IMG/VR virus record: IMGVR_UViG_3300034791_000344
Coordinates: 1 to 20,616 of that record
Direction: 5' to 3' (one strand)
DNA length: 20,616 nucleotides
From: a virus
This document shows, one piece after another, positions 12,236 through 20,616 of this stretch; positions within the stretch are counted from its first letter, which is position 1; each line of letters starts with the position of its first letter. Under the pieces are notes generated by a model that was given only the letters and a program-made list of their open reading frames with translations, had not been told where the DNA came from and did not search any database. A program made the translations under genes and the position numbers.

Positions 12236-13726
12236 ATGAGTCAAAACAAACTACAATCTTTTGAAGACTTTGCTAAAGCGAATACAGTAGCTAAATCAGC
12301 AAGACTTGAAGAAGAACAATCAGCCAAGCGAGACGCATCGGCTAATCAATTTAAATCAATCCTATCTGAATTTGGAGTTACTACAGTAAAAGAACTTACT
12401 GAAGAAGATAGAAATAAATTCTTTACCGCGTTAGGCGCATCTGAAGTTTCTGAATCAATAGCAATTATTGAAGAAGGCACAAGATCTCAAATCGGTAAAA
12501 TCAAAAAGAATGGAAAAATATCAACAGTGTATATGCACTATGATGGTTATCCAGATAATATGTTACCTAAAATTAAAAAGGGTTACGCAGATGGAAAGGC
12601 AGTAGACTTACTACTGAAGAAGGGAGGTGGTTCCGGTCTAGAAGTAAAGGTAGACGATATTAATTTCTACGGCGATAAAACCACTTTAGATGGGGACATT
12701 AAAAATGTTGAGAAGTTTGTAAAAGATGCTGCTAATGATGGCGGAGCTGAATTTATCTACCTATATTCTGAAACAGATAAGAAATGGTATATGGTTGATA
12801 TTTATGACAGTTACGATTTAGAGCCTGCATTTGAATCACTAAACACTATGGTAATCAACGAAAAGTTTGTAGTATCTAAAGGTAATTTAAGAGATGCTAA
12901 GAAAGTTGCTAAATGGTTAGAATCATTCTTTACGAACCATACTGCATTAATGGACGGACCTCTTTTATTAGGATGTTCTAGATACTTATTAGCAGAAGCA
13001 TTAGGTGATGCTAATTTCCACAGATACAGAGACCCTGTAAGTAAAAAGATGGGTGGTAAGATTACAACTATTACAGTAGAGATTGATAAACTAGGAGGAC
13101 AACAAATTCCTGTAAGTAAAAAATCAATTATGAATTTACTAGACGAACATTATTCTGGATTAGCTAACGCTGCAGGATGGTCAGGTATTGGTATTGTTGA
13201 AGGTATGGCTTTATTCTTAGACGGATTTGGTCACTCTAAAATAGCAGAAGCTATTACTGATGAATTTAACTTAATATACGCAAATGAATCAGCAGTTACT
13301 GAAGGTAATGCATTTTTAGCTGCAAGAGCTAAGGCAATCGAAGAAGACGCTGAAGAATTTGAATTTAACGGTAAGAACTTTCCGGTAATTAATAACTCAG
13401 TAGAAGTTGAAGAAGTTGAAGAAGGTAAAGCATCTCAGGCATTGGCTGCAATTGAATTAGCTAAAGAACTTGAAGAAGACGAAGTTGAAGAAGAAGCTAC
13501 TGAAGAAGCTACTGAAGAAGTTACCGAAGAAGAAACTGAAGAAGTTACTGAAGGAGAAGTTACTTCTGATGAAGAATTTAAAGAATATGCATTTGCTGTT
13601 TTAGGTAAAGCATTTGGAGATGATTTTGACGAAGAAAAAGCACAAGAAGTGGTAGACGGTTTATTGTCTAAACATGGTGAAGAGTATGGCGCTGCAATTG
13701 GTGCATTAACATCATCATTAGGATAA
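12236..13726 (+). CDS. Acidic-tailed protein with DGYP domain, probable head-core or packaged protein
   Basis: The protein has 496 residues. The N-terminus ('MSQNKLQSFEDFAKAN') is a weaker version of the tag seen in the following genes, with 'RLEEE' as a possible protease site. 'STVYMHYDGYPDNML' (about 100-114) matches a domain with H-x-D-G-Y-P seen in many phage and bacterial proteins of unknown role. A central alpha/beta region follows, then a strongly acidic low-complexity stretch with four-residue repeats (separate entry), and a helical C-terminal module of about 50 residues ('DEEFKEYAFAVLGKAFGDDF'). The acidic tail recalls prohead core proteins, but I cannot assign a family. The A-rich leader has no Shine-Dalgarno site. 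Confidence 0.6.
   Translation: MSQNKLQSFEDFAKANTVAKSARLEEEQSAKRDASANQFKSILSEFGVTTVKELTEEDRNKFFTALGASEVSESIAIIEEGTRSQIGKIKKNGKISTVYMHYDGYPDNMLPKIKKGYADGKAVDLLLKKGGGSGLEVKVDDINFYGDKTTLDGDIKNVEKFVKDAANDGGAEFIYLYSETDKKWYMVDIYDSYDLEPAFESLNTMVINEKFVVSKGNLRDAKKVAKWLESFFTNHTALMDGPLLLGCSRYLLAEALGDANFHRYRDPVSKKMGGKITTITVEIDKLGGQQIPVSKKSIMNLLDEHYSGLANAAGWSGIGIVEGMALFLDGFGHSKIAEAITDEFNLIYANESAVTEGNAFLAARAKAIEEDAEEFEFNGKNFPVINNSVEVEEVEEGKASQALAAIELAKELEEDEVEEEATEEATEEVTEEETEEVTEGEVTSDEEFKEYAFAVLGKAFGDDFDEEKAQEVVDGLLSKHGEEYGAAIGALTSSLG
13490..13564 (+). repeat. Acidic EE(A/V/E)T tandem repeat
   Basis: Five 12-base units encode EEAT, EEAT, EEVT, EEET and EEVT, then a 15-base unit encodes EGEVT. They sit inside a longer Glu-rich stretch from about 13400. 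At DNA level the units share GAAGAA and ACT/ACC, so the array could vary in number by slippage. The product is probably an extended, highly negative linker. Confidence 0.8.
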
Positions 13727-13745: not shown

Positions 13746-15017
13746 ATGAATAAACTATATACATTCCAACAATTTTTAAACGAGAAAGTCCAAGTTAGTA
13801 ATTTGGACAATTTCGTATTTGAAGGTGGGGCAGCAGGCCACATGATGCATCCTTTCGACGATCACTCGTTGACCTTTGGAGATTTTAAACAAATAGTTAG
13901 ATCTGCCTTACAAGGTGGATTAGACTTTGAAGAAACTCCAACTGAAAAGACTGATGGTCAAAACCTATTTGCTACAGTAAAGGATGGTGAGGCGATGTTT
14001 GCTAGAAATAAGGGACAAATGATAAATCCACTCGATCTATCAAGTACTATTAATATGTTTACTGGCCATGCGTCAAAATTAGTTGAAGAAACATTCATCT
14101 TGGCTGCTAAAGATCTAGCAGAGGCACTCCCAGGACTTAAGGACGTATCAATGTTCGCGAACGGATTAAATTTCGTTAATATGGAAATAATTTACTCTAA
14201 AAATCCTAATGTGATCTATTATGACAGAGATGTTATTCAATTCCATGGTATTGTAGAGACTGATGGTGCAGGTAATCAAACAGGAAAGCAAAATGTTGCA
14301 GGCGAATTAGTTAAAGCTCTAAAAGAATTAAAATCAGATGTTCAAAAGACATTTACAATAATTCCCCCTCAAATATTAAAATTAGCTAAAGACATAGAGT
14401 TTGACTCAAGAGTTAACTATTATGAAAAGGCGATAAATAAATTAAGAGATACCTATAACTTATCAGATGGTGATGAGGTTAAGATGTATCACGAGATGTG
14501 GTGGAGAAACCAAATTGAAGAAAACTTTGCGGATCTAGATCCTGCAATAAAAGAAGGTTTACTTTTAAGATGGGCTTACTTAGATAAGAAGACATTGGGA
14601 ATGGTAGCTCTTAAAAAAGCAGTTGATGCTGAACAGGCTAAGAGAGTAAAAGAATTTGATGCATTAAGACAGAAGAAGTATAAAGAAAACATTTTACCAT
14701 TCGAAAATCTATTTTTAGAGTTGGGTGCAGATGTTTTAAAGAACGCTTCTAATTTTGTTGCTGCTAATCCAGATGCTGAAAAAGCAAGATTACATAAACA
14801 AATCAGAACTTCAGCAAACAGCGTTAAAAAGAATGGCGACCTTACTCAAATTGAAAAGGTTGAAAAAGAACTAAAAAGACTAGAGGGAATTGGTGGTATT
14901 GAGTCTATCATCCCAACTGAAGGAGTGGTCTTTAAATTTAAAGGTAAAACTTTTAAACTAACCGGTACTTTTGCTGCTATAAACCAGCTAATGGGTATCA
15001 TAAAATACGGAAGATAA
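13746..15017 (+). CDS. Tagged covalent nucleotidyltransferase (RNA/DNA ligase fold)
   Basis: The protein has 423 residues. It begins 'MNKLYTFQQFLNE', a capsid-targeting-like tag with a predicted protease site after Leu-Asn-Glu13. Next come 'GHMMHPFDDHSLTFGDF' and the ligase motif I 'EKTDGQNLF' with nucleophile Lys68. A motif III-like strand reads 'FVNMEII'. Motif IV is 'PTEGVVFKFKG' (Glu392-Gly393), followed by a motif V-like 'KTFKLTG' (Lys404). All catalytic elements are present, so it should form a covalent lysyl-AMP (or GMP) intermediate. The substrate, RNA or DNA ends, cannot be read from sequence. The insert between motifs III and IV is about 200 residues and helical, unusually long. Its stop overlaps the start of a second ligase-fold gene. 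Confidence 0.75.
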   Translation: MNKLYTFQQFLNEKVQVSNLDNFVFEGGAAGHMMHPFDDHSLTFGDFKQIVRSALQGGLDFEETPTEKTDGQNLFATVKDGEAMFARNKGQMINPLDLSSTINMFTGHASKLVEETFILAAKDLAEALPGLKDVSMFANGLNFVNMEIIYSKNPNVIYYDRDVIQFHGIVETDGAGNQTGKQNVAGELVKALKELKSDVQKTFTIIPPQILKLAKDIEFDSRVNYYEKAINKLRDTYNLSDGDEVKMYHEMWWRNQIEENFADLDPAIKEGLLLRWAYLDKKTLGMVALKKAVDAEQAKRVKEFDALRQKKYKENILPFENLFLELGADVLKNASNFVAANPDAEKARLHKQIRTSANSVKKNGDLTQIEKVEKELKRLEGIGGIESIIPTEGVVFKFKGKTFKLTGTFAAINQLMGIIKYGR

Positions 15018-16876
15018 TGGCACTACAAAATCTAAAGACATATTTCGAGGGGGCAAACATTTCAGACATCGACGCATTGTTAGATAACAAATGTATTGTA
15101 ACTGAAAAAATTAGCGGCTCTTCTTTTCATGTTAAAAGAGAAGGTAGTGGATTTGTATATTACAAGTCTGGTTCTAAAGATAAAATGAATGTCATAGACC
15201 GTACTATCGTAAGATATTATGAAAACGCAATTAGGCATTTTAAATCAGTATCTGTAGATGCAATGAACGATATGCCATTTGATTGGAAATTCGGATTTGA
15301 ATACGTTGGCGATAATAAAACAATAGACGTCGAATATGATGTGCTACCTAAATCTAATTTAATTCTAACACATATACAAGTAATGCAACCTTCTAACCCT
15401 AATAAAGTTAGAAAGGTAATTAGAGATACTAAAATACTTAACAAGTGGGCAGGATTATTAGAAGTTACAAAACCACCTGTATTATTTGAAGGTCAATTAC
15501 ACTCAGGACAAAAAGACGATATTAAAAGAATACTTGGAATGTCTCCAAATGAATTTGAACAATCGTTTGAAGATAAAGACAGCCCTTCATTTACAAGAAC
15601 TATCTTTGGTATATTTAATGAGAATATGAAGCAATCAGCTTTAATGAATGATTTATCTAAGGATGTTTCAGGATTTATAGTTAATTTCCATGATGGTAAA
15701 TCTTTACAAACATATAAACTAGAGAAGTTTAATAAGAAAGATGCACCAGCAAGAAAACCTTCTGACATGTATCAAATTACACTTTTAGATATTGTAGAGC
15801 ATTTGGCACAATTTAACTTTCAAGATATTAAATTAATAGGAGAAGAAACTGATAAGAGATATTTAGAATTAATGTCTGAGGTTTTTAATAACTATGTTGA
15901 AAAGAATGCTACTAAATACATTGGTGCTAAGTTTGATTCTGCAGATTTTTCAGAATCACCTATGTTTGAACTAAACCATAAGTTTTTACAGAACGAAAGA
16001 ACATTAACATTAGTACAAGATAAAATACTTTCTGAATTATTTAAAATAACATTAGGTAGTTTTAGAAAGAAAAGAAATAAAGAGACAGATCTTATTAATG
16101 CAGATCTAATGAACAATATTAATTCTATTATTGAAAAGATTGATTCATTAATAATGGCTGAGACTAGTGAGAGTGATGTACAAAGTTTTAATCAATATTT
16201 ACTTAATAAGAAGATTAGCACTCAAGTAAGTCCAATTACTGAAGCATTAAAAGTAGATTACCCAGAACATGGTAAGAAATTAGTTAATATGTTTGTTGGT
16301 AGATTCCAACCATTTACACTAGGCCATGCTAAAGTAGTCGAAACTATTCACAAACAGAACGGCCATCCAGTAGTAATATTATTAGTTAAGGCTAAGAATA
16401 AGAAAAAGGAAGATGCATTTAAAAGACCTTATGATGAGTCAACTCAAGTAGCAATGATTAACTCTTTAAAAGGTAGATTACCAATTGAAGAAGTTTTTGT
16501 AATTCCAACCGGTGGTATTGACACTATGTTCAATGCAATGAGACCAAAATACGAACCAGTATTATGGGGAACAGGAAGTGATAGAATGAAAACTTACGGT
16601 TATCAAGTAAACAAACAAGAATATAGAGATGACTTAGATGTTAGAGATGACTTCGGTTTATTTGAAATCCCTAGAACTGGTAAGAACATTTCAGCAACAC
16701 AGGTAAGAAACGCCATGTTAGATGGTGATGAGAAGCTGTTTAAGAAGCTAACTCCTAAGCCGTTACATAATATGTATGCAGAGTTAAAGACTAAACTGGA
16801 AAACTCTATGGGCGTAATGGCCGAATCTACTGAGGTAGAGTTCTTAACCTTTGACAATTTTATTAAGAATATATAA
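15017..16876 (+). CDS. RNA ligase-like domain fused to NMN-adenylyltransferase-like domain
   Basis: The protein has 619 residues. Residues 1-250 look like an RNA ligase core: motif I 'VTEKISGSSFHVKR' (Lys31), 'WKFGFEYVGD' as the motif III region, 'DVSGFIVNF' in the motif IV position (with Ser replacing the usual Glu), and 'YKLEKF' as motif V. A helical segment (about 250-380) follows. Residues 422-565 are an HxGH-type nucleotidyltransferase: 'VNMFVGRFQPFTLGHAKVVE' at 424-443 and 'ISATQVR' at 558-564, as in NadM/NMNAT enzymes that make NAD from NMN and ATP. Tag-like segments occur at the domain joint (about 380-409, ending I-T-E) and at the extreme C-terminus ('FLTFDNFIKNI'). The start overlaps the upstream stop by one base. 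Combined roles in RNA repair and NAD supply are plausible but inferred. Confidence 0.75.
   Translation: MALQNLKTYFEGANISDIDALLDNKCIVTEKISGSSFHVKREGSGFVYYKSGSKDKMNVIDRTIVRYYENAIRHFKSVSVDAMNDMPFDWKFGFEYVGDNKTIDVEYDVLPKSNLILTHIQVMQPSNPNKVRKVIRDTKILNKWAGLLEVTKPPVLFEGQLHSGQKDDIKRILGMSPNEFEQSFEDKDSPSFTRTIFGIFNENMKQSALMNDLSKDVSGFIVNFHDGKSLQTYKLEKFNKKDAPARKPSDMYQITLLDIVEHLAQFNFQDIKLIGEETDKRYLELMSEVFNNYVEKNATKYIGAKFDSADFSESPMFELNHKFLQNERTLTLVQDKILSELFKITLGSFRKKRNKETDLINADLMNNINSIIEKIDSLIMAETSESDVQSFNQYLLNKKISTQVSPITEALKVDYPEHGKKLVNMFVGRFQPFTLGHAKVVETIHKQNGHPVVILLVKAKNKKKEDAFKRPYDESTQVAMINSLKGRLPIEEVFVIPTGGIDTMFNAMRPKYEPVLWGTGSDRMKTYGYQVNKQEYRDDLDVRDDFGLFEIPRTGKNISATQVRNAMLDGDEKLFKKLTPKPLHNMYAELKTKLENSMGVMAESTEVEFLTFDNFIKNI
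16154..16243 (+). other. Tag-like segment at the ligase/NMNAT domain joint
   Basis: From Met380 the frame reads 'MAETSESDVQSFNQYLLNKK' and continues to 'SPITEAL', ending at Glu409. The F-N-Q-Y-L-L pattern followed by hydrophobic-T-E and Ala-Leu resembles the tag at 18111, which ends I-L-N-E-A-L. Cleavage after Glu409 would release the adenylyltransferase domain. The leader here is less A-rich than at the other internal tags, so this is the weakest of the three. Confidence 0.35.
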
Positions 16877-16893
16877 ACAAAATAAATTAACAC

Positions 16894-17289
16894 ATGAAAT
16901 CAATAAAAACATTTGAAGCATTTACTCATAACATAGTTAATGAAAAAATGACTTTTGGAAGTTATTACTTTAGTACATACGCGTTTGATGGTTTTGATTT
17001 ACCAGCTAAAGGTGAAACTAGTTTCGCTTTAGTGCTACACAATACTGTAGAAGTAAATGGAGAATCAATGTATTTAAGATCTAAAAACGACCATAATGTT
17101 GGAGCCGGATTTAGACCTAAGGTTGTAGCTGTTGCTACAGATCAAGCATCTATAGAAGAAGCATATAAAACTCATGTAAAAACTGGAGGTGAAGGTGCGA
17201 ACCTTTCAATCTCTTATGGATCATTTACTGTTAAAGGAGCAAATTGCTCATATACAGAAGTTGATGGTATAATAAAAAAGCTTAAATAA
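16894..17289 (+). CDS. Tagged small protein of unknown function
   Basis: The product has 131 residues and opens with 'MKSIKTFEAFTHNIVNE', with a likely prohead-protease site after Val-Asn-Glu17. The remainder would be about 114 residues, beta-rich, with 'GSYYFSTYAFDGFDLPAKGE', 'GFRPKVVAVATDQASIEEAY' and a C-terminal helix ending in basic residues. No family is recognised. The leader is A-rich (AAACAAAATAAATTAACAC) without a Shine-Dalgarno site. I infer a packaged internal protein because of the tag and neighbours. Confidence 0.6.
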   Translation: MKSIKTFEAFTHNIVNEKMTFGSYYFSTYAFDGFDLPAKGETSFALVLHNTVEVNGESMYLRSKNDHNVGAGFRPKVVAVATDQASIEEAYKTHVKTGGEGANLSISYGSFTVKGANCSYTEVDGIIKKLK

Positions 17290-17291
17290 TT

Positions 17292-19157
17292 ATGAATAAA
17301 TTTGAAGACTTTTTAGAAGAAGGCAAAAAGATACAAATTAAAAGAAAGTATACTGAAAACCATCCAGCACAAACTGTTGGTAAAACAGCTAATGTTAGAA
17401 ATGAGATTTTAAAAGCTGTAAAAGACGGTGTGATAACTGAAGAAGAGTTTACTAATATAATTTCTAAATTATCTACAAGCCCTAAAAGATGGAGAACAAC
17501 CAATTCAAAATATTTCTTTGTTTCTGAAGAGGGTATTAAACTTTCTAAATGGGGTCTTAGGATTTTAAGTGAAGTTGATGATACTCCTAAATTAAAGGCA
17601 TTTGCTATCCATGAGGCAACAGTTGTTATGGATGCAATGGATCCAAAATCTAAAGTATTAAAGAAACTTCTTAAGAAGCATAAGGTTACAATGGAAATCA
17701 TCGATATGAAAGGCCCAAGTGGTTGGCCTGAAGTAGAACTTACTGGTTCGAAAGAAGATCTTACAAAGGTATTAGCATCAGAAGATGGATGGGATGACGC
17801 GGACTTAGCAGAATATATCGAAGAGTCTAAAGAAGGTAAAGTAACAGAAGGTTATGAAGTTATCTTTAGTGATGGTGTATCTCAAATCCAAAAATTCAGA
17901 GATGAAAAAGGAGCGATTGCTTTTATGAAGAAAGAAATTGCCTCTAATAAAAAATTAAAAGAAATTGCTATATACAACGCAGGATCTGGTTTTCATTCAA
18001 CAACACAAACTGAGTTTGTAGTTAAGTTTTGGGGAAATGGATCTTACTTAGATAACGTTTCTAAAAAAGATAATAAATTAGCATCTAAAAAATTAGAAGA
18101 AAAAAACAACATGGAAAATAATATAAACTTATTTGAATCTTTTGAAGCATTTACCGCTTCTAACGGGATATTAAATGAAGCACTAGGTAGTCAATTACTA
18201 GCTAGCGTTTTAATGAGTAACAAAGAAGGTAAATACGGTAAAGAAAATTTAAAGCAATTAGCTGGTGGTTTTTACCAATTAGCTAAAGTTGCATTAGATA
18301 AAGTAGGTGATGAGGATATGATCGTAAGTAATGATCCAAGTAAAGTATTTAAAGAAAATGGTGGATCAAAGCACATATTATTCTTTATATCTGATAACGA
18401 AAAAGATAATCCATATTGTCCTTATGATGCTGGTTACGGTGCATTAAAAACTGTACCAGGTGGAGGTACTCTAATAGCAGCAATGTCTGGTGATAGAGAA
18501 TTTTATACTAACGACTGGTCTAGATACTCGAAAGATAGAGCATTTAAAAAAGACGGTAAAAAAGGTAAAGAAGACCAAGTTGGTGTATCACATAAATACA
18601 GAGGCTGGTCAGGGACTGGACTTAATAATGGTAAAAGAATCGCAGAAGTTTCTGATAGAGTTGTTATTATTAACCTAGACTTAATTAGACAAAAGTATTC
18701 TACTCAACAATTAAGAGATGCAAGAGCCGCTGCTAAGGCAGGTGCAACTGCATTTAAATCTGATAAAGATTTTAAGAAATCTAACAACGACAGATACCAC
18801 CAAATTTTAGCTACTAAGGCTGCAAAAATGCCACTAGATAAAATGGTAGCAGATGCAATCGATATGTTAACTGATCAAATTAAAGCAGGTTTAGCTAAGG
18901 GCGAAAAGACTAAATATGATGAAATCAAAATTGGTCAAAGTGCAAATGGTAGAGAAGTTAAAATGAGAGACGCTTCTAATCACATGTCAAATATCCTAGA
19001 TGATTATTCTAGATATTGTAATTACATTGCACAAGAAGAAGAATCTGATAAAAGATATGGTTCATCTGAATCTTGGTATAAAAGAGAGATTAAGAATTAC
19101 GCTTTATCACTTAAAGAAAGAATAGCTAAAATCGAAGGATTTGATTACGCTTGGTAA
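17292..19157 (+). CDS. Two-part tagged protein, apparent fusion of two cargo proteins
   Basis: The protein has 621 residues. Part one (1-273) starts 'MNKFEDFLEE', a short tag with an L-E-E site, then includes 'GPSGWPEVELTGSKEDL' (about 141-157) and 'EGYEVIFSDGVSQIQKF' (about 189-205), which look like small alpha/beta modules. Part two begins at Met274 with a complete second tag ('FESFEAFTASNGILNE') and continues with a domain of about 325 residues containing 'GVSHKYRGWSGTGLNNGKRI', 'DRVVIINLDLIRQKY' and a helical C-terminus. I do not recognise either enzyme class. The reading frame is continuous across the joint, with an A-rich leader-like sequence before Met274. Either one fused precursor or two nested products is possible. 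Confidence 0.65.
   Translation: MNKFEDFLEEGKKIQIKRKYTENHPAQTVGKTANVRNEILKAVKDGVITEEEFTNIISKLSTSPKRWRTTNSKYFFVSEEGIKLSKWGLRILSEVDDTPKLKAFAIHEATVVMDAMDPKSKVLKKLLKKHKVTMEIIDMKGPSGWPEVELTGSKEDLTKVLASEDGWDDADLAEYIEESKEGKVTEGYEVIFSDGVSQIQKFRDEKGAIAFMKKEIASNKKLKEIAIYNAGSGFHSTTQTEFVVKFWGNGSYLDNVSKKDNKLASKKLEEKNNMENNINLFESFEAFTASNGILNEALGSQLLASVLMSNKEGKYGKENLKQLAGGFYQLAKVALDKVGDEDMIVSNDPSKVFKENGGSKHILFFISDNEKDNPYCPYDAGYGALKTVPGGGTLIAAMSGDREFYTNDWSRYSKDRAFKKDGKKGKEDQVGVSHKYRGWSGTGLNNGKRIAEVSDRVVIINLDLIRQKYSTQQLRDARAAAKAGATAFKSDKDFKKSNNDRYHQILATKAAKMPLDKMVADAIDMLTDQIKAGLAKGEKTKYDEIKIGQSANGREVKMRDASNHMSNILDDYSRYCNYIAQEEESDKRYGSSESWYKREIKNYALSLKERIAKIEGFDYAW
18111..18179 (+). other. Internal capsid-targeting-like tag and possible internal start
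   Basis: An in-frame ATG at 18111 (Met274 of the 17292 gene) begins a full tag ending in Ile-Leu-Asn-Glu at 18179. The 30 preceding bases are A-rich (ending GAAGAAAAAAACAAC), like the leaders of the stand-alone tagged genes at 16894, 19179 and 19489. It could be an internal translation start, a protease site between fused domains, or both. Confidence 0.55.
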
Positions 19158-19178: not shown

Positions 19179-19469
19179 ATGAAAATATTTACATTATTTG
19201 AACAGTTTATTAACGAAAAAGTTAATATCAAAAAAGAAATTAAGAAAATAGCAGACTACTATGATGACACAGAAACATCTGGTACAGAAATATACGTAAA
19301 AGATTATGTAGAAGATGAAGACGTAAGTCCACATGGTTATATGTTCTGGTGGAATGCAGAAGATCAAGAATGCGGTATTGAATATCAAAAAACAGCAGCT
19401 GGTGATGTATCAGATGATCCATGTAAGACAGCAGATGATTTCATAGCATACGTTAATAGTAGAACATAA
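19179..19469 (+). CDS. Tagged small acidic protein of unknown function
   Basis: The product has 96 residues. The tag 'MKIFTLFEQFINE' predicts cleavage after Ile-Asn-Glu13, leaving about 83 residues. After a Lys-rich helix ('KVNIKKEIKKIADYYDD') the protein is acidic and aromatic ('YVKDYVEDEDVSPHGYMFWW'), ending in a short helix. No family is recognised. The A-rich leader (TAAAAATAAAACAAATT) matches the other tagged genes. It could be an injected inhibitor; small acidic phage proteins often are, but this is only a guess. Confidence 0.6.
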   Translation: MKIFTLFEQFINEKVNIKKEIKKIADYYDDTETSGTEIYVKDYVEDEDVSPHGYMFWWNAEDQECGIEYQKTAAGDVSDDPCKTADDFIAYVNSRT

Positions 19470-19488
19470 ATAATAAAATACAAACACT

Positions 19489-19917
19489 ATGAAACACTTA
19501 CAATTATTTGAAGAATTTATTAACGAAGGCACATTAAAGGCTGGAAGAGATGAAGAATTAGGAAACGCTATTCTTGCATATTTTTATGCAGTTGATGGAA
19601 CTCCAGAAGGTGACGCTGTAAGAGCATTGCCAGGAAATCCTATTAGATATGACGGTAGTGTAGGTGAACAAGATGGTTTATCTGGATTTGGAAAGGCTGT
19701 TGTAAAAGACATATCTAAAGCAAGAAGAGTTCCTTCTGATTTTATGATGGGTAATGTTGTAACAATAGCAGCAAACAATGGTAACTCATATTACTTTGAT
19801 GGTTCTGATTTCGTAGAAGGTGATAAAACTATTATTAGTGGAATTCACAAAATGAAATATAGAGAATTTATCGACAAGCTTATTAAGTTAAAGATAATCG
19901 AAACTCCAAAATATTAA
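19489..19917 (+). CDS. Tagged small protein of unknown function
   Basis: The product has 142 residues. The tag 'MKHLQLFEEFINE' predicts cleavage after Ile-Asn-Glu13. The mature part has a helix ('EELGNAILAYFYAV'), a Gly/Asp-rich middle ('IRYDGSVGEQDGLSGFGKAV') and a C-terminal helix rich in Lys and Ile. No catalytic motif or membrane segment is seen. The leader is A-rich (ATAAATAATAAAATACAAAC). The stop is followed one base later by the start of the next gene. Confidence 0.6.
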   Translation: MKHLQLFEEFINEGTLKAGRDEELGNAILAYFYAVDGTPEGDAVRALPGNPIRYDGSVGEQDGLSGFGKAVVKDISKARRVPSDFMMGNVVTIAANNGNSYYFDGSDFVEGDKTIISGIHKMKYREFIDKLIKLKIIETPKY

Positions 19918-19918
19918 T

Positions 19919-20616
19919 ATGTCAGAAGATAAATCATTAGAAGAAAATTCAGCAGGTGCAGTATCTTTAAATCCTGGTATGACTATCGGGGGTATTGGAG
20001 ATCCAGTATTACCAACAGCAACTACGGTAGGTTCTGGAGATGTTCTTTCAGTAGCAGATATAGATGATGACGAAGAAGAAGCCAAGAAAGATAAAACAAA
20101 AAAGAATTTAGAAATGGAATCATTGCACTTAACATTTGACAGCTTTGTAAACGAAACATTACTTATCGAAGGTAAATTTGATAATCATGTTGATTTAGTT
20201 AAATCTTTACATTTTGAAATAGATCCTGAGGTTGCTAAGGAAATGAAAATTGAACTCGGCAAAAGACAAGGTGAATATTCAGAAAGAAAACAAATCGAAG
20301 GTGGAGATTATTCATTAAGAAGATTTAGAAAAGAGATTAAGTATGATGAGACTGGTAAAGATCTTGGTGTATTTAGGCCTGGTAGTTATATGGCTGCCAC
20401 TTCTAAACTAGGCGATGGTCCACATAAGAAAGCAGTTAAGAAAATAAAATGGACTCAAAAGAAATATGACCAATGGTTAGAAGATGTTGCATCAAATGAC
20501 GGTTGGAAGAATGCTTCTGATATGGCTCAAAATGCTAAGAACGAACCAGGACTTATTGATTGGGTTAAAAAGAATAATAGAGGTGAAGATGCAATGCAAA
20601 GAATCCAATGGGATAT
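19919..20616 (+). CDS. Tagged protein with N-terminal extension, 3'-truncated
   Basis: The frame starts at the ATG at 19919, one base after the previous stop, and stays open to the right edge (232 complete codons visible). Residues 1-50 are Gly/Pro/Ser-rich and probably unstructured ('NPGMTIGGIGDPVLPTATTV'), followed by an acidic-to-basic linker ('DIDDDEEEAKKDKTKK'). At Met66 a complete tag begins ('MESLHLTFDSFVNE'), and a charged alpha/beta domain follows ('KFDNHVDLVKSLHFEIDPEV', 'RRFRKEIKYDETGKDLG'). No family is recognised. The unstructured first part may be a separate small module or a fused small gene, as in the 17292 gene. Confidence 0.6.
   Translation, partial: MSEDKSLEENSAGAVSLNPGMTIGGIGDPVLPTATTVGSGDVLSVADIDDDEEEAKKDKTKKNLEMESLHLTFDSFVNETLLIEGKFDNHVDLVKSLHFEIDPEVAKEMKIELGKRQGEYSERKQIEGGDYSLRRFRKEIKYDETGKDLGVFRPGSYMAATSKLGDGPHKKAVKKIKWTQKKYDQWLEDVASNDGWKNASDMAQNAKNEPGLIDWVKKNNRGEDAMQRIQWD
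20114..20155 (+). other. Internal capsid-targeting-like tag and possible internal start
   Basis: An in-frame ATG at 20114 (Met66 of the 19919 gene) starts 'MESLHLTFDSFVNE', ending in Val-Asn-Glu. It is preceded by an A-rich run (AAAACAAAAAAGAATTTAGAA) like the leaders of stand-alone tagged genes. This is the second clear tag in the middle of a longer frame. Confidence 0.55.

Follow-up and report, generated by a model that had tools for sequence, protein, structure and literature searches.

Two targeting tags in one reading frame: a predicted head-cargo polyprotein with a probable nested gene start in uncultivated T4-like phages

The reading frame and its tags

The window, by which we mean the whole 20,616-nucleotide stretch of viral DNA that was analysed (IMG/VR record IMGVR_UViG_3300034791_000344), contains a long ORF with the following features.

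17292..19157, + strand: modular ORF P0001, 621 aa, predicted head-cargo polyprotein; open over 621 codons and fused in 47/56 distinct relatives
17292..17321, + strand: tag 1, a capsid-targeting-like propeptide MNKFEDFLEE (residues 1-10) with a predicted cut between E10 and G11; gap-free match to T4 IPIII, tag statistics
18087..18110, + strand: A-rich, G-poor leader before the internal ATG; composition and synonymous-codon tests
18111..18179, + strand: tag 2, MENNINLFESFEAFTASNGILNE, with internal start Met274 (residues 274-296); in L036 it stands at residue 1 of the split C gene (5986) and of that gene's paralogue (7011)
18177..18179, + strand: Glu296 codon, predicted P1 residue of the cut before C; invariant in 33/33 aligned C modules

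The initial annotation had placed two tags in this one frame, at residues 1 and 274, and both are there: the 621 codons are open, Met274 lies at nt 18111, and I293-L294-N295-E296 is followed by A297, that is, MENNINLFESFEAFTASNGILNE then A. Tag 1 aligns position for position and with no gaps to the start of T4 IPII and IPIII (MKTYQEFIAE, with A after the cut), while tag 2 corresponds to the longer form of T4 IPI, which starts with MKTFKEFTSTTTPVSTITE and continues with A after the cut (the T4 proteins were translated from the T4 record). In the T4 tag, residues 4 and 7 carry targeting and residues 8 and 10 processing, and gp21 cleaves after L/I-X-E (PMC9026906). Tag 1 has the form of a T4-type capsid-targeting sequence (CTS): it is N-terminal and about 10 aa long, T4 positions 4 and 7 are aromatic in it, and it ends in an I/L-x-E cut site. 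T4-type CTS proteins have the tag at the N-terminus only; here a second one occurs at residue 274, and it is internal in most relatives, so the protein resembles that class in its working without being an ordinary case of it.

To place the tag among the related loci we use a strict pattern, [FYL]xx[FY][ILVT]xE, with shuffled N-termini as the null. It is found in the first 20 residues of 79 of the 367 non-redundant ORFs of these loci, where 2.7 are expected (maximum 8 in 200 shuffles). The most frequent form, MKHIKLFEQFINEA, is often seen on small genes that follow one another. The strict pattern was not found in Tenacibaculum phage PTm1 or LR756500. Other ORFs of the window are also tagged, as listed below.

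13746..15017, + strand: tagged ORF MNKLYTFQQFLNEK
16894..17289, + strand: tagged neighbour MKSIKTFEAFTHNIVNEK
19179..19469, + strand: tagged neighbour MKIFTLFEQFINEK
19489..19917, + strand: tagged neighbour MKHLQLFEEFINEG
19919..20614, + strand: ORF open at the window end, with the internal tag LHLTFDSFVNE preceded by a Lys-rich stretch

Several of these genes have features of their own. The ORF at 13746-15017 contains a ligase-like EKTDGQN motif and may encode a head-borne nucleotidyltransferase or RNA ligase, a reading for which Pfam returns no match. The ORF at 19919-20614 belongs to a second family of internal-tag fusions (L001:8750-9484, L004:7795-8535, L028:8390-9208, L025:7564-8202, L048:9303-10079, L060:8053-8718), several of which are laid out as an acidic start with NxxGMGxVxLP..GSGD, a Lys-rich run (often KKKKK), the tag and the cargo; the acidic motif resembles capsid-protein residues ~50-85, a short and weak likeness (E about 1e-4, tiny set). 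Tags also occur at the C-terminus: the window ORF at 15017-16876, with a cytidylyltransferase/NadM-like domain, ends in ESTEVEFLTFDNFIKNI before the stop, and the ORF L039:7378-7824 ends in KKKKKKREKKLAKSFEAFIFEKYGNL. Small tagged genes (about 100-290 aa, MKH-KLFEQF-NE) form head-to-tail runs in L033:4270-5607, L053:2575-3240 and L047:79-2113 and are candidate head cargo. At the other end of the window, positions 1-2667 hold a large open-ended ORF with a collagen-like GAKGDQGEIGPQG start and Cys-rich repeats (GCTD..ASNYN..A..DDGSC), a probable tail or fibre protein.

Modules, border sites and the prohead protease

The relatives of the 621-residue protein come from IMG/VR, 60 in a first search and 137 when a profile of the C part was used. 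The protein has no match in 50,697 INPHARED phage records, and no isolated relative was confirmed in the genome contigs searched; all known relatives are uncultivated. Comparison with them divides the chain into four modules, and the same logic is seen in a second ORF of the window.

17322..17615, + strand: module N1, residues 11-108, winged-helix-like core 26-100, predicted cut after I106-H107-E108, before A109; conserved in 28 relatives, VIA-align Z up to 9.1 (moderate), E108/A109 at least 90% conserved
17616..17849, + strand: module N2, residues 109-186, weakly PII/ferredoxin-like, predicted cut after V-T-E186, before G187; in other ORFs and orders in relatives, PHROG 5922 E=6e-7, VIA-align Z about 6.5
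17850..18101, + strand: module N3, residues 187-270, possible cut after L268-E269-E270, before K271; homologues in L053, L036, L046 and L051, in other contexts
18180..19154, + strand: module C, residues 297-621, predicted conserved cargo domain; 137 IMG/VR relatives, AF2 pLDDT 75, no PDB or BFVD match
12236..13726, + strand: second modular ORF, with modules B, D and E and INE/VTE sites; modules B + D lie inside the C-module ORF in L055/L056

The relatives' ORFs are about 490 to 960 residues long, and in them N1, N2 and N3 are reordered, lost, duplicated, joined by further modules or present in other genes of the same locus. The order is N1-N2-N3-tag-C in the window, N2-N1-E-C in L058 and L023, N1-N2-x36-N3-E-E-tag-C in L053, and N3-N1-x11-tag-x13, stop, tag-C, stop, tag-C' in L036. 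In L058, N2 comes directly after the predicted cut site of the N-terminal tag (MINFKQFITE before the cut, ASVIMDA after it). AlphaFold2 models N1, N2 and C as folded and the joints with low confidence. The N1 model looks like a winged helix and that of N2 weakly like a PII/ferredoxin fold; the model of C is only moderate, and searches with it against PDB and BFVD give nothing at E up to 0.001. Pfam has no domain above cut-off in either half of the ORF, where remote folds may still exist. The gene L069:14067-15815 lies downstream of the capsid protein gene and has modules x31/x32 with VTE/VNE borders in common with the 12236-type ORF in L017 and L008.

The initial annotation had suggested that the prohead protease could cut the fusion at I-L-N-E into two proteins. 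The site is indeed of the prohead-protease type, but it is one of about five likely sites in the ORF, and the chain appears to consist of two tags and four modules (N1, N2, N3, C). An earlier comparison of site density between tagged and untagged proteins told us nothing, as polyproteins were still present in the untagged set, and tests at the borders took its place. At homology end points with shifted context, the motif [ILVM][NT]E occurs at 147 of 702 left ends against 75+-7 at random, and at 131 of 456 right ends against 53+-7. The near-motifs [ILVM]DE, [ILVM][NT]K and [ILVM][NT]D are at expectation at the same end points. The permuted motif [ILVM]E[NT] is also enriched at the borders (1.8-2.1-fold), so linker composition may explain part of the [ILVM][NT]E signal. 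For the named modules a site stands at 71 of the 104 left borders, with only 10 in 15,024 core residues. The motif alone does not make a cut, since an ITE (E50) sits within the well-folded N1. Before C, E296 is invariant in 33 of 33 aligned sequences, and the surrounding linker varies. The chain is thus built as a polyprotein would be, from several folded units with protease-type sites at their borders and low-confidence AlphaFold2 linkers between them, and cutting at these borders is predicted.

An S77 (gp21-type) prohead protease is found above the family cut-off in all 11 long relatives examined; its gene is not in the 20.6-kb window record, which is itself a fragment. In L061-L074 the protease shares its chain with a scaffold-like region made of a long repetitive coiled-coil (YTEHVAE...), in the manner of a gp21-gp22 fusion. 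Small acidic tagged genes lie between portal and protease and, in some loci, also between protease and major capsid protein (the head cassette). The clade's capsid protein itself starts with MATLINE, followed by A after the site.

This head cassette bears on a quite unlikely alternative, namely that the chain is a scaffold or core protein consumed in the prohead, with fragments that leave or fill the head like T4 gp22, gp67 and gp68, and is not delivered cargo. The tagged acidic genes of the cassette would suit it, as would the cutting of T4 core proteins into several fragments by gp21 (PMC9026906). The modules, however, are folded, diverse and fast-shuffled, as T-even internal proteins are, and the clade already has a separate protease-scaffold fusion. 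We therefore prefer to read the chain as a predicted precursor of head cargo.

The predicted internal start and the fused and split relatives

The A-rich stretch before tag 2 had been likened in the initial annotation to the leaders of stand-alone tagged genes, and the resemblance is general. Across 30-31 distinct relatives, the 24 nt before the internal Met have A 0.65 and G 0.07, compared with A 0.59 and G 0.06 at stand-alone tagged genes, and with A 0.38 and G 0.19 before other ATGs of the same ORFs. At the third codon positions of the leader, G is absent (0 vs 15.5+-3.5 expected) and A is in excess (125 vs 84+-5). The Thr codons are 29 ACA and 1 ACT, whereas ACA makes up 39% in the rest of the ORFs; Lys is AAA in 34/34 and Glu is GAA in 30/30. 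When one leader is taken per relative cluster (12 clusters), 34/35 codons still end in A (p=1.2e-5). A K/N/T/E-rich linker alone does not account for the A-richness, because the synonymous codons are skewed and K/N/T/E-rich control windows lack the skew (ACA 69/163). In the internal leaders, position -3 is A in 87% and position -6 in 100%. In Flavobacterium johnsoniae, from a phylum that does without Shine-Dalgarno sequences, A at -3 is reported to be the determinant of the start site (PMC6847099).

The relatives that lack the internal Met, about a quarter of the distinct ones, provide a contrast. In the 14 distinct leader regions where it is lost, A is 0.47 rather than 0.65 (p=1e-4) and G is up to 0.15, while the fusion, the tag and its Glu remain. 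Since the A-richness goes with the Met and the tag and Glu stay, the tag and site appear to be kept for their own sake and the leader for the start. In some relatives (L053, L054, L056, L058) no recognisable tag adjoins C. The codon tests, the composition tests and the Met-loss contrast all indicate an internal start signal under nucleotide-level selection of its own; the Met274 start looks real, and initiation there is predicted. "Fused cargo precursor or nested genes", as the initial annotation put it, are then not alternatives, and both probably hold together.

The selected leader, together with the stand-alone tagged C genes in L036 and L100, could also be read to mean that C comes mainly from the internal start, that the long frame arose incidentally when a stop was lost and that polyprotein cutting is irrelevant. 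We regard this as very unlikely: those same 14 leader regions without Met or A-richness retain the fusion, the tag and the Glu, and the N modules have border sites of their own. A precursor that is cut and also contains a nested start is the reading that we keep.

Next we consider how often the fusion is found. The distinct C-module ORFs number 56: 47 fused, 4 cut short by a contig end and 5 that start near C. Two of the five are pieces of the frame-broken L052 record, the L028/L036 lineage contributes two (the C gene and a paralogue), and L100 the last, a second tagged copy. In a tree the split C is placed inside the fused set. On these counts and this placement, fusion is the common state, and the splits come from shuffling, with C gaining a stand-alone tag again. 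A frameshift or assembly artefact is rejected because the same fusion recurs in many independent contigs, so the frame, for which the initial annotation advised independent sequencing, is not a sequencing slip. Only L052/L153 looks frame-broken; in L047, N1 and C lie in overlapping, different frames, which may be a further such case.

Split versions, for which the initial annotation had advised a search among related phages, do exist but are rare. The clearest is L028/L036, where the upstream gene retains the leader and tag 2 before a different cargo (x13), and C comes next, as a separate gene with a tag of its own. The origin first proposed, two ancestral genes whose intergenic stop was lost, is right in that separately tagged cargo genes are joined in one frame; the simple loss of one stop is too simple, because the L036 upstream ORF keeps the leader and tag 2 with x13, and the lineage shows module shuffling and not the loss or gain of a stop. 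The initial annotation had also set against its proposal homologues that are always fused through a conserved, structured joint. This is not what is seen: the joint before C is modelled with pLDDT <50 (residues 1-21 of the C model) and is variable among relatives except for the tag and its Glu.

So prevalent a fusion, with disordered linkers, is also what would be seen if the product were an ordinary uncut multidomain virion protein, in which flexible linkers join the modules, and past gene fusions left the N-E motifs and tag 2 behind as relics in these linkers. Against this stand the invariant Glu at the C border within an otherwise variable linker, the sites that mark most module borders and are almost absent from module cores, and the persistence of tag and site even where Met and leader are gone. 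An uncut protein is unlikely on these grounds, and we return to the protease-cut precursor.

Proposed reading and comparison with known systems

Taking together the tags, the module permutation, the border sites, the invariant Glu, the protease gene in relatives and the selection on the leader, we think it likely that the ORF encodes a head-cargo precursor of a T4-like phage, composed of prohead-protease-cut modules, with tag 2 doubling as the start of a nested gene. According to this model, tag 1 would steer the whole chain into the prohead core, where the gp21-type protease would cut after [ILV]-x-E at E10, E108, E186, probably E270, and E296. The cuts would release N1, N2, N3 and C, about four proteins and not two, for ejection into the host. 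Tag 2, which comes with the conserved A-rich leader and ATG, would serve as a second targeting sequence, placed in front of C, so that the internal start could also yield C by itself in a form that would still be packaged. Because the cut sites divide the modules, these could be swapped between precursors without breaking the products. The host phylum is probably Bacteroidota, as suggested by the leader type and by the nearest capsid relatives among known records, which are Lak phages of Prevotella and Tenacibaculum phages.

A more tentative extension, which we put forward with some reserve, is that a whole clade of uncultivated T4-like phages delivers shuffled, protease-diced cargo polyproteins, with internal tags as nested, independently translated genes. 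The same tentative reading may be pictured as a cargo train: recombination at the cut sites would exchange its cars, and the last of them would be able to travel alone as well. If true, tailed phages apply polyprotein processing to the proteins that they deliver into hosts, and rapid turnover of the cargo set would need no new promoters or stops. Proteins that a large group of uncultivated phages probably injects could be listed by a sequence rule, namely a tag combined with [ILV]-x-E borders. Two further points would become testable: that a capsid-targeting sequence works from an internal position, and that a Bacteroidota-type leader can start translation within a coding frame.

In the open-licence literature searched, with subscription papers outside the scope, we found no description of a phage cargo polyprotein of this type. 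The targeting tag, the protease and the cut rule are already known, being those of the T4 internal proteins. What was not found in the papers searched is the combination of a shuffled cargo chain, prohead-protease sites at the borders and an internal tag with its own start.

Among the closest known systems is that of T4 IPI, IPII, IPIII and Alt, which have a short N-terminal, gp21-cut CTS with the same spacing, [FY]xxF[IL]xE with the cut after E (PMC9026906, PMC3012670). The clade shares with it a gp21-type protease and diverse, fast-changing cargo behind a conserved tag. In T4, however, one gene gives one protein with one N-terminal CTS, whereas here there are several modules per chain, a second CTS inside it and shuffling between precursors. 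Several cuts per substrate after x-x-E are also known for phiKZ gp175 and SPN3US gp245 (A-X-E in SPN3US; PMC10052503), but those cuts strip long propeptides from one mature protein, while the cuts predicted here would separate folded modules at the motif [ILV]-x-E. The polyvalent proteins of phages and mobile elements are likewise long and multidomain, with shuffled domains, and are proposed to be packaged and delivered (PMC5512222). They seem to differ in that no metallopeptidase, ART, PBECR or other polyvalent domain is found here by Pfam, and in that the border sites here point to an outside protease. For the nested start, T4 gene 17 is annotated with a second start in one frame and a shorter C-terminal product. 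Lambda C/Nu3 is another phage head gene with an in-frame internal start. Unlike in both of these, the internal product here would have its own tag and predicted protease site, and its start lies behind a Bacteroidota-type A-rich leader and not a Shine-Dalgarno sequence.
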